Assembly: GCA_018812465.1 (NCBI GenBank)
Contig: JAHJCS010000112.1
Span: forward strand, 1-5,312
DNA length: 5,312 nt
Source of the DNA: Nanobdellota archaeon
GTDB lineage: Archaea; Nanobdellota; Nanobdellia; Woesearchaeales; UBA12501
Direction of reading: 5' to 3'
Of the stretch, positions 1 to 5,312 are shown in pieces. The position numbers and the translations under genes are program-made. The notes under the pieces were generated by a model. It was not told the DNA's origin. It saw only the letters and a list, made by a program, of their open reading frames with translations, and searched no databases. How positions within the stretch are numbered: the stretch's first letter is position 1; each line of letters begins with the position of its first letter.

Positions 1-3000
1 ATTATTATTTGCTTGCCTATCCTGCTCTGCACCTCATTTAGCTTTTTAATAAGCTGCGGGTCTATGTTGATATTGTTGCTGTACCTGGGTATAAGGCCAT
101 CCTGATCCCCATTGTACGAGACACTTCTCTGATCTTTAGGACAGTACCTATTGATGTCTGATTTTGTCAGTATCCCATAAGATCCTTTGTTATTCGAACC
201 CGTGTTTCCTATATAAGGCGCACACCATAATATTGTACCTCCACTAGGCTTGCTTGCGAAATCAGTCTCTGTGAGTGGTCTTAATGCCCCTGAGTTTGAA
301 GTGCTTGTCGAACTGGTGGTTGTTCCTGGAATTTTTGAGTTAGCTGTTGTGTCAAACTTATAGCTCTTCTTTATATCTGGCTCATCAAGTATTATGTTTG
401 TTCCTCCACCTGCTTCAATCTTTATATTGACTTTTTTGTCAAAGTCAGACTGCTCTGCCTGGTTCAGTGTTATTGGGCAATAACAGCAGCACTGGTCTGT
501 TTCTACACAGTCTCCAAAGTCCTCAACAAAATCGCTCCAGAGATTCTCTTTTGGGTCGCAAGGTCCATTGAACATTGTCAGGCCCTCATCTTTCATCTCC
601 GACCTCTCATTCACTGCTTTGACAGATTCTGCAACGCATTCTTCTATCTTTTTGCCTGATTTCTCACACTCTCCTACCATATCAATGAGGCCTTTTGCTG
701 TACCATATCCAGTGACCTGCTGCCTTATCATATCATAGACTCCAAAATCATAATCTGTATCAAGAGTGAATGATGGATTTGCCTGGTACTTCCCTATTGA
801 ACTGATGACATGTATTATCTCATTTCCTTCTGGGGTGTACTCTGTCTCTGTTGTTGTTCCTCCATATCTTCCATAATCAGGTATTGAGTGAGTGCCTTCA
901 CACACAAAGCTTGTAGGCGTGTCCGCTGGAATGTCAGATGCATAAGGTCTTGTCTCAACAAGCTGCGGATCAACCCTCAATGCTTCCATCTTCCCTTTGT
1001 TAAGATAATCTTCCATAGGTGTGAGTGTAACTTTGTATGATGAATCTGGTTTGCAGCAATTGTCACTGCAGCCGCTTTTAGTGCTCGGACCTGTTCCTCT
1101 TGCATTCAGGAACATATGTTTTCCATCTTTTTCTCCAAAATATATTCCTGTGTGGCCCTGATTCTTTACAAATACCAGATCTCCTGGCATCAGCACTCCG
1201 AAATTGCTGTCTCTTATCTCCTGGTCACTGATTCTTTTTCCAGATATCTTTTCTACAACTGTCTTGCCCCACTCAAATATCTTTTTATCTTCTGAACTGG
1301 CACTTATCACTCCAAGCTGACGCAGTGTTATATACTGGAGTCCAATGCAGTCAATTCCATAATTCATCTTATAATCAGTTGGCCCAAAAGCATATCCATA
1401 TCGTCCACCCCAGTTGTAAGCAACATTCTCCATGAGCAGAGCCTGATCAAGTATCTTCTTGTTTGAAGGAATGACATTATCTCCTGTGCCTCCAGGGCCT
1501 GTTGGTGTGCCTCCATACCTCTCAATCTGGATCTTTCTCCATTCATTTACCCAATCCTTGACATTCTTTGCATATGTTGTTGATGGAGCATAGGTAGGGA
1601 AGACTGATTCTACTGTGGTCCTTCCTGCAGCAATATATGGTTCAGCAAGAATGACCTTGTACCATGCTTCTATTCCTTGCTCCCATGAGCTGAATTTACA
1701 GAAAGGCCTTTTCTGGAGATCTTCTATTGTGTCACTATGGCACACTGCAGGATCATTGTTGAAGTAGGTCTCTGTGCATCTGTCTGGACTTATCTTTATA
1801 TTGCCTGGGTTCTTTGATATGCTTGGATTGTTGCAGCCTACAGCTTTTCCGAAGTTTGATTCTTTCCTGAAGAATGCAAGAGCAATAGCTGGATCAATGC
1901 CATACTTAACTCCATAATCATAGAAAGCCTGTGCGCTTCCTGCTACAGGAGAACCTTCGTTCTCAAGGATTTCTTTTATCAGACCCACTGATATGCATGG
2001 CTGTGATGTCTTGAAAGGAAGCTGTTCATTAGGGCCGTACTGCCTGCATTCCTTGCTTGTGCCATAATTAGCAGGAGGTGCCTGAGGGCCTATGCTTAAT
2101 CCAGCATCAGCTGTTGTTATTGCCTTGTGCCCCACAGTGGCTCCTCCACCGATTGCTCCTGTTGAGACATCAGGCCATTGGCAATATCCACTTGATAATG
2201 CTTCTTTCCATGAATTAGATCCATACTCAAAATGCCATCCTTCTGACTGCCAGTTTGCCCATCCAGCTTTGCAAGCTGCTTTTATCCTTTTCTCATAAGG
2301 CATACATTTTCTCCATCTTATATCTATAGCCACGCCGCGTGCATGAGGGCAGTGAGCAAAGCTTCCACCTCTTGGCTTACAGACACCACCTCTTGATTTG
2401 TATTGCTCATATAGAGTCTTATATGCTGCTTCTGACCTCTGGGCAGAGTTGATCACAAGCTCACATCCTTCTTTTTCAAACTCTTCTGCAAGCTTCAATA
2501 CAGCTTCTGCTGCTGACTTCTTTAGCCTGCAGTCAACTCCAGGTTCGCATAAGTCTCTTCCTTTGTATTTAGGAATTGGAACAAGCTCTTCATTGCTGAC
2601 ATCAACATCAAGGATATTTGTTCTTGATGATATCTCTCCTTCATTTCCATTTGTTGATGGTGTTGTTATTGTGGTCACTGCAGGAGCTTCTATCTTGACA
2701 TAATTCACATTCCTTCCAGAGCAGTCTCCTGTTCCGAATGGATCAGCATGGATGTATGGGCTTTCATAATAATTGTCTGGATCCCTTCCTTCTCCAGTAG
2801 CATAGGCATGATAATATCCTTTTGAATAAGTGCTCTCAAGCCATGTTGCCATCTCTTTGTACTTGCTTATATCAGCGCTTGAGGTCCATTCTTTTACCCG
2901 GAAGTCTGCTGCTGATCCGCACATATGCCAGCTGTTAAGACTCACTCTGTCAGGTGATGAGAAACTGAAGCTATTTTCCTGTTCAAGTTTTTCTGCTTTG

Positions 3001-5312
3001 TCTGCCTCAAGTCTTGCCCAGCTCCAGAGATTATGCTTGTAAGGTCTTGTTCCTGACTCTATTATTATTGTCACACCAAATTTATCCTGTGCTTTGTTAA
3101 GCAGGTCTATGAGTTTCTCATTTATTCCATCTGAGGGTATCAAACCTTCCTGCTCTCCATCATAGGTCACTGTCCTCTTTTCAGGAGGGCATTTTACCTG
3201 AATATCATTGTATTTGAATATCTGGTTAGAGCTGGAAGCAGCACACCACTTGAGGGATTCTCCGCTTGCTTTGCTCATGAAGTCCTCTTTTGTTATCTTG
3301 CCATCATTGATGTAGTAATCCCTTGAAGCTGATGCTCCAGCGCCGGGTCTCTGTGCTCCTGCTTCTGGAACAAGCGCTATTCCATAATATGCGATATCAT
3401 TTACAAATTCTTTTGACCAGACCTGTTTTTCTCCTACTGTCCTGTCCCTGTTGCATGAAGTTGCTCCTGTCGCTGGATCATTCACTATTATATGATTCTC
3501 TGAGACTCCGACAACATTCACCCAGTGGCCTTTTGTCTCATAGCATCTCTCATTTAGATTGTTCTGTCTTGTCCTGAAATTCTGCCATTCTTGATCTTCA
3601 TCCTCTCCGCTCTCTTTCTGTTTTATATCAAGCACAACAGGATTCCCTGATTTGATCTCATTGGTTATTTTGGTAAAGTCAAACACTTCATACTTCTTTG
3701 AATTAGGAAGGATTTTCTTGGTTATTCTCTCCATCTCCTCTATTGTAGTGCCTTTGCCAGGAGTATATACTTCATTCTCCTCTCCTGCGCAGAATAATGA
3801 TTTGACAGAGACATCCTTTCCAACCTCAGCAAAAGCCATGCTGAGGGAGACTGGTCCGCATCCTGATCCGCTCACTCCTCTTGAGCCTTCTCCGCATCTT
3901 CCAAGATCCTCAAAATCGCGATGCTGGTTCATGTATGTCGGAAGGTTTGCCAGAACAACTGTGTCAGATGGGCATTTTGCAGTGCAGCATTCTTTGCCAT
4001 TATTCTTGCATTCATTATAAGCCTCTTCTCCAAAGAGAGCTTTGACACTTTCCTTGCCTTCTTTGCAGTAATGGCAGTCAAGCTCTGCTCCAGAAGTCGT
4101 GAGCCCTACAGACATTCCTCCAGGCCCTGCATAATTGTTTATTCCTTCAACAAGAGCATTGGCCATTGCTTCGAGCTTTACTTGATCATTTAATGCTGGA
4201 TCATTTATTGCTGCCATCTCCAGAAGTATTGTTTTCATGTTCGATTGTTTTGCTGCTTTCAATGCAGTTGTGGTGTAGACTCCAAGAGCGCTTGTCTGAC
4301 TTCCTCTATAACCCCATGGAGTTATCTTGTATTGTATTCCTGTTGCTGTCAGCAAAGCATCTCCTACTGAGTCAGCAAGCTCTTTTGATTCAGCGCATAG
4401 TTCAGATGCTCCTGCTGCCTGGCAATTGCTGTCTAATGGAAGAAGTATCATCCTCTGGGTTTTCATTCTTTCTCCAGAGCCAGCTGCATTATTGTGTATG
4501 CTTATGAAAATATCTGCTTTCTTTCCAGCAGCCCACACTGTTCTTGCCTGTCTTCCTGTTTTGCATGATTCACAGTCCCATTGTTCTCCAAAGTGTGTAA
4601 GGTAAACAGTATGCCCCTGGCTTCTGAGCTTATCTGCAAGGATATCAGAGATGTACATGTTCTTGTTTGCTTCTGCTGAGAATGATGTTGCTATCTTCTG
4701 TTTGTTCTCTTCATAAGGCTGAAGATAAGGATAGCCTCCTCCTTGTGTTCCTGAATCAGCTGCTCCATGGCCTGGATCAATCACTATTGTCATTGGTCCT
4801 GCTGTTCTGGGCAGTCCTCCAGGTGTTGTAGGTGGTGTGACTGGCTGTTCTATTGTCTCAATCTCTTCAACAGCTATATTGAATTCCAGCTTGTCTGTTG
4901 TTATGGCCTTGACCTGCTTGCTTGTGACAATAAGATTATAATCAGTATCAAAGTTTCTCAGTTCTCCTCTTGGATAGATATCAAGAATCTTTGACAGCTC
5001 GCTCTGCATCATATTGCTGAATGGTGTTGGAGGGCTTTCTGGATAGCATTTCTTCAGGATTCCGTCTTCTATAGCAAGCCAGTTATAATATTGATAATAT
5101 ATTCCACATTTGGCTGACTCTTCTTCCTCTGACGATGACCCCCCTAAGTCAGCAAGATCTATTATTGTCCTGTCAAAAGCAATATACGCAGACCTGTCAA
5201 TGAATAGCAGAGCGCTCTCAACCTTTGATATTGTCTGTATCATAAGAAGCTGGTTCTCTCCGATATATTCCTGCTGGGTCTCTGGAGTGTTGATAGCAGA
5301 GTAATAGATGAA
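1..5312 (-). CDS. Giant multidomain peptidoglycan hydrolase, partial at both ends
   Basis: One minus-strand frame is open across the whole window: 1770 codons from base 5312 to base 3, with no in-frame stop and no sign of a frameshift. The start and stop codons both lie outside. The chain carries, in order, a membrane-proximal N-terminal segment, Amidase_3, a Cys-rich connector, a C39-like peptidase, a Peptidase_M15_3 domain, a VanY-type M15 domain, a glucosaminidase-like domain, NlpC/P60, a Cys-rich region of unknown function, and the start of a second M15_3-type module. Catalytic residues are present in every complete enzyme domain. Single-domain relatives are usually 150-450 residues, so this length and stacking are exceptional. 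Many cysteines and Thr/Pro/Gly linkers suggest export and folding outside the cytoplasm, with action on murein. Arginine is coded almost only by AGA/AGG (about 56 of 61 by hand count), which with frequent ATA and GGA suggests a DPANN-type archaeon. No single known gene name applies. Confidence 0.97.
3..275 (-). repeat. Internal repeat, copy B: start of a second M15_3-type module (residues 1680-1770, cut by window edge)
   Basis: The last 91 residues repeat the N-terminal extension of the first M15_3 module (672-750), sharing T.DF.SK.SG, LWCA, a Cys-Pro pair, a Y.G.Q.GLIP element and the following helix. A Gly/Ser/Asn insert (about 1702-1712) makes this copy slightly longer. Copy A runs directly into IIIESGTRPYKHN, and copy B ends in GKQII at the equivalent point. 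A second catalytic core with the SG.R and SWH..G.A.D motifs is therefore expected immediately beyond base 1. The two copies are clearly diverged, so this is an old duplication and not an assembly artefact. Confidence 0.86.
276..962 (-). other. Cysteine-rich region of unknown function (residues 1451-1679)
   Basis: No enzyme family was recognised. From the NlpC side it contains a Thr/Tyr-rich stretch (1465-1495) and a short conserved-looking segment, FTLDTDYDFGVYDMIRQQV (1515-1533). A charged helix with cysteines 1549 and 1559 follows. Next comes an acidic, aromatic block, LWSDFVEDFGDCVETD (1591-1606), running into a CCCYC cluster (1608-1612), and then a beta-like stretch (1626-1655). It ends in a Thr/Ser linker (1662-1674, GTTTSSTSTSNSG). 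The helix, cysteine cluster and beta segment could form a wall-binding or partner-binding domain, but nothing in the sequence proves that. Confidence 0.5.
963..1469 (-). other. NlpC/P60 endopeptidase domain (residues 1282-1450)
   Basis: This papain-like cysteine peptidase family cuts the D-gamma-glutamyl-diaminopimelate bond, or an equivalent bond, in the stem peptide. NVAYNWGGRYG matches the Y.WGG element. GIDCIGLQY carries the nucleophile Cys1322 (the family consensus is DCSGL; here Ser is Ile). VLMPGDLVFVKNQGHTGIYFG carries the LxPGDLvff strand and the catalytic His1387. MFLNARG places Asn1403 at the third polar position, usually His, Asn or Gln. A loop of about 35 residues (1337-1371) between the two halves is longer than in small NlpC domains, and a CSDNCC cluster (1415-1420) follows the fold. 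A flexible Gly/Pro/Thr linker (1267-1280) separates it from the glucosaminidase domain. All catalytic positions are intact. Confidence 0.94.
1518..1994 (-). other. Glucosaminidase/lysozyme-like domain (residues 1107-1265)
   Basis: This is predicted to cut the glycan backbone of murein. VGLIKEILENEGSPVAGSAQ leads into FYDYGVKYGIDPAIALAFFRKESNFGKA, which matches the lysozyme-fold pattern of a helix, 'gIdPalalA', and a catalytic glutamate in an ES.fG setting (Glu1151). NPGNI (1168-1172) matches the NPGNI/N.fGi element of glucosaminidase-type domains. Further on, FSSWEQGIEAWYKVI, a TV..V..TYAPS element (1233-1244) and a closing Tyr/Trp-rich helix (1247-1259) fit the C-terminal part of these domains. 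An insert with cysteines 1160, 1179, 1191 and 1205 separates the two halves. The exact family (GH73-like or transglycosylase-like) and the bond cut are uncertain. A Gly/Pro/Ser-rich linker (1047-1106) precedes it. Confidence 0.8.
2175..2591 (-). other. VanY-like M15 D,D-carboxypeptidase domain (residues 908-1046)
   Basis: This second, different M15 peptidase is predicted to remove or cut at D-alanine in murein stem peptides. ELVINSAQRS (951-960) replaces the usual SGYRS element and is followed by the typical AAYKTLYEQYKSRGG helix. HCPHARGVAIDIRW supplies zinc ligands His990 and Asp997. SEGWHFEYG supplies the probable catalytic Glu1024 and the third zinc ligand His1027, an arrangement standard for VanY/DacB-type enzymes. 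The serine usually two residues before the first zinc histidine is a cysteine here (Cys988), and Cys978, 1003 and 1014 lie nearby, so disulfides are plausible. At about 140 residues it matches the family length. It follows the M15_3 domain after a Thr/Ser/Asn-rich linker (876-907). Confidence 0.92.
2688..3323 (-). other. Peptidase_M15_3-type zinc peptidase domain, first copy (residues 664-875)
   Basis: This is an M15-family (hedgehog/D-Ala-D-Ala-peptidase fold) metallopeptidase predicted to cut stem-peptide bonds in murein. IIIESGTRPYKHN (749-761) matches the SG.R element. SWHMCGSAADFRV supplies zinc ligands His796 and Asp803, and SPYIHADPFG supplies the third ligand His855 in the (F/Y)-hydrophobic-H-x-D form typical of the M15_3 branch and of phage endopeptidases. 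Two departures from the family are visible. A charged helical insert of about 30 residues (762-792) separates the SG.R element from the zinc motif. An N-terminal extension (672-750) with two cysteines precedes the catalytic core and recurs at the C-terminal edge of the window. Whether it acts as a carboxypeptidase or an L-Ala-D-Glu endopeptidase cannot be read from sequence. Confidence 0.86.
3063..3299 (-). repeat. Internal repeat, copy A: N-terminal extension of the M15_3 module (residues 672-750)
   Basis: This stretch aligns with residues 1680-1770. Shared anchors, in order, are TKEDFMSKASG / TETDFASKPSG, LKWCA / ILWCA, a cysteine-proline pair (708-709 and 1724-1725), RTVTYDGEQEGLIP / RSVSYNGDQDGLIP, and a closing amphipathic helix (INEKLIDLLNKAQ / IDPQLIKKLNEVQ). 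It precedes the SG.R element of the first M15_3 domain, so it is part of a duplicated module and not a separate domain. Confidence 0.88.
3363..3965 (-). other. C39-like (Peptidase_C39_2 type) cysteine peptidase domain (residues 450-650)
   Basis: The papain-fold hallmarks appear in the right order. Gln463 in YMNQHRD fits the oxyanion-hole glutamine. SGSGCGPVSLSMAF carries the probable nucleophile Cys485. KGHWVNVVGVS carries the catalytic His596, and IIVNDPATG carries the third residue at Asn611/Asp612. GNPVVLDI (556-563) is the usual strand before the histidine. A charged loop at 564-594 is longer than usual for the family. Bacteriocin-transporter C39 domains cut after double glycine, but C39_2 domains in secreted multidomain wall hydrolases have poorly defined substrates. 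Cutting a peptide crossbridge or processing the chain itself are both possible. There is no ABC transporter part, so an export-peptidase role is unlikely. Confidence 0.85.
3966..4115 (-). other. Small cysteine-rich connector (residues 400-449)
   Basis: Between the amidase and the C39-like domain lies a short segment with six cysteines: 413, 416, 435, 442, 443 and 447, with a CHYC motif and a CCTAKC motif. The even number and tight spacing suggest either disulfides in an oxidising exterior or a metal-binding knuckle. No known family was recognised. It may act as a rigid spacer or a small wall-binding module; this is inference. Confidence 0.5.
4131..4793 (-). other. Amidase_3 domain: N-acetylmuramoyl-L-alanine amidase (residues 174-394)
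   Basis: This domain is predicted to cut the amide bond between N-acetylmuramic acid and L-alanine of the stem peptide, using one zinc ion. It starts with the family hallmark TIVIDPGHGAADSG, where His182 is the first zinc ligand. Glu214 (in FSAEANKN) fits the second ligand position, though its alignment is the least certain. IFISIHNNA supplies His273, and ILLEMAAINDP supplies the catalytic Glu365 near the end, in the place of the usual VE.GFLSN element. The secondary-structure rhythm, including LADKLRSQGHTVYLTH, matches AmiC/CwlM-like domains. At about 220 residues it is somewhat longer than the usual 170-200, owing to an insert at 189-213, a CESC pair at 247-250 and a Cys-containing loop around 297-306. 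All key residues are kept, so activity is likely. Confidence 0.93.
4857..5312 (-). other. N-terminal membrane-proximal segment (residues 1-152)
   Basis: No enzyme motif is visible here. The segment opens with the hydrophobic, aromatic FIYYSAINTPE, which could be the outer end of a transmembrane helix lying just beyond the window. A predicted helical stretch follows, containing IGENQLLMIQTISKVESALL and then FIDRSAYIAFDRTIIDLA. Next come a Ser/Glu tract (residues 59-66, SSSEEEES) and a segment with two cysteines (69 and 89) and aromatic residues (72-78). Membrane-anchored extracellular proteins of DPANN archaea often have a pilin-like hydrophobic N-terminus followed by this kind of helix; that comparison is from memory and unverified. 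The inferred topology is N-terminus inside, enzymes outside. Residues 153-173, rich in Thr and Pro (for example QPVTPPTTPGG), form a flexible linker to the amidase. Confidence 0.55.

Follow-up and report, generated by a model that had tools for sequence, protein, structure and literature searches.

A giant protein with at least six predicted wall-enzyme domains and a pilin-like module from a likely woesearchaeal genome

Introduction

The multi-domain endolysins of phages and autolysins of bacteria known to us carry two or three catalytic domains each. The protein described here resembles them in that it links modules of the same catalytic families in a single chain. We know of no endolysin or autolysin carried by a pilin-like archaeal scaffold.

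Attack on bacterial walls by Woesearchaeota has already been proposed in print. Proteins of up to 3,000 amino acids with a murein-like transglycosylase domain (fam00969) were reported in Pacearchaeota and Woesearchaeota, and bacterial walls were suggested as the target of these extracellular proteins (Castelle et al. 2021, PMC8204110). Likened by their description, fam00969 and the protein studied here are both very large and come from the same archaeal group; for the family a transglycosylase domain is named, and the main text of that paper does not contain the word "pili". Archaeal wall hydrolases of bacterial families, prominent in Nanoarchaeota, are the subject of a more recent article whose title states that archaea make hydrolases that kill bacteria (PLoS Biol. 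2025, PMC12352652). Our protein is likewise archaeal and of bacterial wall-hydrolase families, but that set, as described there, combines at least one catalytic domain with one wall-binding domain, whereas ours has many catalytic domains, no wall-binding domain that we could find and a pilin-like module. Woesearchaeota MAGs from Lake A encode GH23 transglycosylases and tlyC, were linked to peptidoglycan degradation, called "vampiristic" and read as predatory (PMC9723730); single enzymes are named there, and the main text lacks the words "pili" and "pilus". Finally, archaeal type IV pilus systems resemble the one considered here in having both clusters of prepilin-like genes and secretion ATPases (Makarova et al. 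2016, PMC4858521), and the main text of that survey lacks the words peptidoglycan, hydrolase, amidase and Woesearchae. In the literature searched, with preprints and most subscription papers outside its scope, no description of pilin-linked archaeal wall hydrolases was found. Within that literature, the pilin-like module with its cluster, the exchange of enzymes behind the module and the six-enzyme chain are new.

Results

The window, i.e. the whole stretch of DNA analysed, is 5,312 bases long and corresponds to the entire contig C8 of the genome G000 (1.35 Mb, 280 contigs, 79% complete). Its product is the central part of a giant protein in which at least six wall-enzyme domains lie on one chain, and for which cleavage of walls is predicted from sequence. 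The window has the following features.

3..5312, minus strand: open frame of 1,770 amino acids with no stop, open at both contig ends; the middle of a longer gene
4845..5312, minus strand: N-terminal module of the pilin-like scaffold, residues 1-156 (module profile match at G000:C8:4875-5312, 2.6e-30)
4137..4787, minus strand: Amidase_3, residues 176-392 (H182, H273, E365; Pfam 61 bits, cut-off 27)
3471..3917, minus strand: Peptidase_C39_2, residues 466-614 (C485, H596, also D612; Pfam 40.2 bits, cut-off 24)
2742..3218, minus strand: M15_3-like peptidase, residues 699-857 (H796, D803, H855; Pfam below cut-off, plus PHROGs endolysin)
2220..2528, minus strand: VanY-type M15 peptidase, residues 929-1031 (H990, D997, E1024, H1027; Pfam 29 bits, cut-off 25)
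1542..1931, minus strand: glucosaminidase/lysozyme-like domain, residues 1128-1257 (E1151; Pfam below cut-off)
1098..1421, minus strand: NlpC/P60 (NLPC_P60), residues 1298-1405 (C1322, H1387; Pfam 24.1 bits, cut-off 23)
393..812, minus strand: C-terminal scaffold module, residues ~1501-1640 (matches in relatives)
3..344, minus strand: second M15_3-like module, start only, residues 1657-1770 (truncated by the contig end)

A sequence-only reading of the window had proposed at least six different hydrolase domains in one frame, followed by the start of another M15_3 module. Pfam returned these families in the order claimed, four of them (Amidase_3, C39_2, VanY and NLPC_P60) above the curated cut-offs and two just below: M15_3 at residues 699-761 (23.1 bits for a cut-off of 23.2) and Glucosaminidase (27.6 for 30.2), whose key residue E1151 is present. 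The M15_3 stretch is supported independently of Pfam by the endolysin profile phrog_894 (residues 729-857, 3.1e-11), and PHROGs endolysin profiles cover the amidase, M15_3 and VanY parts of the protein. As had been proposed, the beginning of the first M15_3 module recurs at residues 1657-1770, and all 15 active-site letters were found at the positions given for them. With at least two catalytic wall-hydrolase domains and their active-site residues on one chain, the window protein is multi-catalytic in the sense used here. The same reading spoke of a complete murein-dismantling kit; the domains are there, but "complete" goes further than the sequence supports, since the C39_2 family is not murein-specific and Pfam yields no wall-binding family in the assembled part of the gene, nor in its homologues P0002 and P0003 described below.

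The VanY domain has weak PDB matches to D-Ala-D-Ala carboxypeptidases (E 0.024 and 0.03), and the Glucosaminidase profile matches a phage cell wall hydrolase (E 0.0018) over columns that omit the catalytic Glu; aligned with the SLT domains of relatives, the glucosaminidase-like domain matches over only 23 columns around the Glu with a probability of 15%, so that it may be either a glucosaminidase or a transglycosylase. PDB sequence searches with M15_3 and NlpC gave nothing useful. The structure model of residues 640-1290 had a pLDDT of 40.8, too poor to support any domain, and was therefore not used for a fold search. A loose first-look scan of the genomes did not list the NlpC of G000, though hmmscan scores this domain over the cut-off, and a scan of the genome contigs with the window protein confirmed no locus.

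Besides the window's own protein, the protein search returned two homologues, P0002 and P0003. P0002 is a partial protein of 2,477 amino acids that aligns with 87% of the query at 68% identity and bears the name Candidatus Woesearchaeota archaeon; its gene lies on a 37-kb contig of G001, which belongs to the same genus as G000. The domains of P0002 are, in order, Amidase_3, C39_2, M15_3 (weak), VanY, Glucosaminidase (weak), NlpC (weak), NAGPA, fn3 and Polysacc_deac_2, so that it matches the domain order of the window in one frame over query residues 121-1675; this is the homologue of identical order that the sequence-only reading had called for, and it shows that the reading frame is not an assembly chimera. 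P0003 (1,855 amino acids, 56% identity over 38% of the query) has Amidase_3, C39_2, NAGPA where M15_3 and VanY would be, and a weak Glucosaminidase match; in its NlpC-like part, glycine replaces the cysteine. The 15 catalytic residues are all identical in P0002, and seven are kept in P0003, which lacks the seven of M15_3 and VanY together with the NlpC cysteine. Between the window and the G001 gene, dN/dS was 0.20 for Amidase_3, 0.15 for C39, 0.13 for M15_3, 0.15 for VanY, 0.21 for Glucosaminidase, 0.05 for NlpC and 0.12 for the C-terminal module, with underlying dS values of 0.97-2.1 (0.97-1.83 for the six enzyme domains), near saturation. Low values across the six domains (0.05-0.21) are consistent with maintained function. 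The earlier proposal that selection maintains all activities fits this pair and fails for the wider family, where P0003 has exchanged M15_3 and VanY for NAGPA and lost the NlpC cysteine. That proposal also overlooked the likely archaeal host, the extension of the gene past both contig ends and the pilin-like N-terminal module. The source of the window gene is likely a woesearchaeal archaeon.

The missing ends of the gene can be sought on two other contigs of G000. The 3' end of C45 holds the start of a prepilin-like gene, MRSKKSQIIDFLIIGG, which fits the start of the window gene, about 7 residues being missing before the first residue of the window by comparison with G001. Contig C20 opens with an open frame bearing Polysacc_deac_2 (104 bits), at the same place as in P0002, and this frame is followed by a gene that also follows the P0002 gene in G001; we used the latter as a marker and take it to encode an RPA-like protein. 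The Polysacc_deac_2 frame is likely the C-terminus of the window gene, the signal helix likely lies just outside the window at the end of C45, and the window gene likely ends the row of pilin-like genes on that contig. We infer that the three contigs follow one another in the order C45, C8, C20; a search for exact overlaps of 15-119 bases between their ends found none. Codon usage of the window correlates with that of the ORFs of C45 and C20 at 0.95 and 0.94, respectively. Contamination or a chimera was rejected, given this agreement and the identical domain order in G001.

The N-terminal module consists of a pilin-like helix followed by ~130 residues with two conserved cysteines and occurs in at least 150 of 194 genomes of the phylum. 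Outside the order, frames with this module are mostly 150-300 amino acids long (31 of 35 rows among the matches listed), which leaves hardly any space for an enzyme; within the order, some frames are short as well. A prepilin-like signal (basic residues, a small residue, a hydrophobic helix), judged by eye and with our own motif script, is present at the starts of P0003 and the G001 gene and at the end of C45; over the whole of C45, the script assigned such a start to 11 of 11 plus-strand ORFs. The marker protein has matches, a few only weak, in at least 95 of 99 relatives. At 86 marker loci, counting ORFs within 6 kb whose start was in view, 276 of 386 same-strand upstream ORFs were prepilin-like, against 5 of 144 downstream; 26 of these loci had no pilin-like ORF within 6 kb upstream, some owing to a contig end. 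The secretion ATPase family T2SSE was detected in all 30 genomes searched, in 29 over the cut-off. A model of P0005, a related scaffold with an SLT domain, reached a pLDDT of 73.7 with N-terminal helices at residues 3-27 and 36-74; its best PDB matches are lytic transglycosylases and then fn3 proteins, with no pilin among the best 50 listed for the scaffold, and this model neither supports nor excludes a pilin fold.

One pilin-like gene of C45 (L074 6056-7096, ~346 amino acids) has an Amidase_3-like domain (31.9 bits, cut-off 27) that aligns only from profile position 15 onward; read by eye, its first histidine motif is absent and the later SIHIG is kept. It may be a degenerate amidase serving as a structural pilin, and similar Amidase_3 matches occur in the pilin-like clusters of several relatives. 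Upstream of the pilin-like cluster, three relatives encode giant proteins (L067 3763-11163, 2,466 amino acids; L068 2949-9125, 2,058; L070 7280-13159, 1,959) with matches, many of them weak, to Ig-like or carboxypeptidase-regulatory domains.

To what extent relatives carry enzymes behind the same module was assessed with an HMM of the N-terminal module, which gave 76 matches; after removal of six judged false by eye and of P0003, 69 genes remained, among them L035, an N-terminal fragment of the G001 gene. The loci are not a random sample, some having been fetched with the window protein or an Amidase_3 match and the rest with the marker gene. Of the 86 loci, 59 have a gene with the module no more than 9 kb upstream of the marker gene, 40 of them as the next ORF on the same strand, and 27 have none; in relatives such genes often close a pilin-like cluster. 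Scanned singly, 36 of 52 such genes had a wall-enzyme family at E<=1e-3 (5/5, 8/9, 8/10, 5/10, 5/8 and 5/10 in successive batches), two of which (L050 and L098) are under the curated cut-offs and one of which (L094) has YkuD, a transpeptidase family, alone. The other 16 were without a wall enzyme, including 11 of 36 complete genes of at least 450 amino acids. Over the 69 genes the tally was M23 in 16, SLT in 9, M15 in 5, Amidase_2 in 4, VanY in 3, two each for YkuD, M74, NlpC and 3D, and one each for Amidase_3 and Polysacc_deac_1; it implies two more M23 genes among the 17 not singly scanned, i.e. 38 of 69 altogether. The first wall-enzyme stretch begins at residue 175-300 in 31 of the 36 genes. 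The C-terminal scaffold module also recurs, with matches in G003, G008, G009, G018, G004, G098, G034 and G051. A protein search with scaffold sequences returned 13 further proteins, 11 of them with M23, SLT, NlpC or M15_3, two of which (P0015 and P0016) have little or no N-terminal module in the alignment. Enzyme families are also found beside the scaffold gene: in G068 the adjacent ORF carries Polysacc_deac_1, NAGPA and VanY, and in G008 the second ORF past it carries NAGPA and Metallophos.

Positions were also counted genome-wide for several families, M23, the commonest in this position, being left out. On the strand of the marker gene, the 15 kb upstream of it contained 5 of 11 VanY matches, 4 of 7 NAGPA matches (3 genomes), 8 of 20 Amidase_3 matches (7 of 15 genomes; 60 searched), 2 of 11 NlpC matches and 13 of 104 SLT matches, the other 91 lying elsewhere; for SLT, 13 of 117 listed rows were omitted as further pieces of one frame and one such pair was retained. 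Random placement would put fewer than one match of each family there, by a rough estimate that assumes independent, randomly placed matches. From these sequence comparisons, the pilin-linked gene position looks like a slot where wall enzymes are exchanged, and the window gene looks like an extreme case of it, because relatives vary the enzymes behind the same module.

Three further loci or proteins deserve mention. In G052, a second site, away from the marker gene, holds a 1,873-amino-acid ORF (L039 4517-10138, contig C27) that has a VanY-like domain and is preceded by two pilin-like ORFs. In G022, two adjoining scaffold genes (L066 3515-5362 and 6063-7631) have no recognised enzyme domain, and an SLT match lies near them in another frame (G022:C2:244118-244564). 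A scaffold-like protein with NlpC/P60, P0012, is labelled Candidatus Thorarchaeota and is possibly misbinned or the result of a transfer.

As for the producer's own envelope, Mur_ligase_M and the PBP Transpeptidase family gave no match in G000 (79% complete), G001 or G002, and both were detected in ten of ten bacterial control genomes. Mur_ligase_M also matches in two archaeal controls and in 24 of 60 relatives, so that a match to this family alone would not mean murein; Transpeptidase matches in 2 of 30 relatives. The lack of both in the three genomes, together with what is known of the enzyme families, points to foreign, bacterial murein as the likely substrate. Three Mur_ligase_M matches in G014 and one PBP transpeptidase match each in G007 and G019 may reflect contaminants, a transfer or, in some archaea of the order, synthesis of a wall.

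Discussion

The reading that we favour, and regard as reasonably probable, is that a woesearchaeal giant protein would be exported by the pilin route, held at the surface and used to open the peptidoglycan of bacteria touched by the cell. The prepilin peptidase would cut the signal of the protein, which would leave the cell by the pilin route and then sit at the filament or the membrane. Contact with a bacterium would first be made by the pilin-like apparatus, after which neighbouring domains on one chain could cleave the sugar-peptide amide, the peptide crosslinks, the peptide ends and the glycan; the outcome would be lysis, or a breach for the uptake of nutrients or DNA. The window protein is likely a contact weapon or a feeding device, in an archaeon that has no murein wall, the mechanism being proposed from the anatomy of the protein and from comparison with its relatives.

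The enzyme folds might instead mainly grip the wall of a bacterial host in a stable attachment, with little or no digestion. The missing NlpC cysteine of P0003 and the Amidase_3-like domain without its first histidine motif in the 346-amino-acid pilin-like gene of C45 would suit such a wall-binding adhesin, but the conservation of all 15 listed residues in the window and P0002, the low dN/dS and the intact enzyme families behind the module in many relatives speak against it, and we consider a mere adhesin unlikely. Pilus and secretion systems of bacteria are equipped with wall-lytic enzymes that let them cross the cell's own wall, and by analogy the domains could act on the envelope of the producer itself, trimming its glycans or S-layer or opening a way for its pili. 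This self-directed role appears distinctly unlikely given the lack of Mur ligase and PBP transpeptidase matches in G000, G001 and G002; moreover, D-amino acid peptides, on which enzymes of the M15 and VanY families act, are to our knowledge not found in archaeal envelopes.

A protein freed from the membrane that digests murein debris or distant competitors, with no link to pili or contact, would agree with the suitability of multi-enzyme chains for polymer digestion and with the polysaccharide deacetylase and NAGPA modules of the homologues. It would leave the prepilin-like start, the pilin-like neighbours and the similar position of the enzymes behind the module without explanation, which makes this scavenging or defensive role quite improbable in our view. 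We give very little credence to an assembly artefact or bacterial contamination: the contig is short, ends inside the gene on both sides, belongs to a 280-contig assembly and has no exact overlap with its presumed neighbours, but a homologue of the same domain order lies on a long contig of another genome, codon usage agrees with that of C45 and C20, and the N-terminal module is widespread in the phylum.

Returning to the contact-dependent opening of bacterial walls, we tentatively extend it to the group as a whole. Woesearchaeota may possess a conserved pilin-based contact machine in which the last gene of the cluster serves as a docking slot, where one wall-breaking enzyme is swapped for another from lineage to lineage as bacterial targets change. 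The window gene would be the most heavily armed form seen here, with six to eight enzymes per chain, and the cell would prey on bacteria or parasitise them, across the domain border, by drilling through their walls. Such a slot would bear on the question of whether and how DPANN archaea live on bacteria and pass their walls, and its genes would be a source of natural multi-enzyme wall hydrolases. An exchange slot behind a pilin-like module would tie a surface apparatus to bacterial targets in a way that is directly testable.
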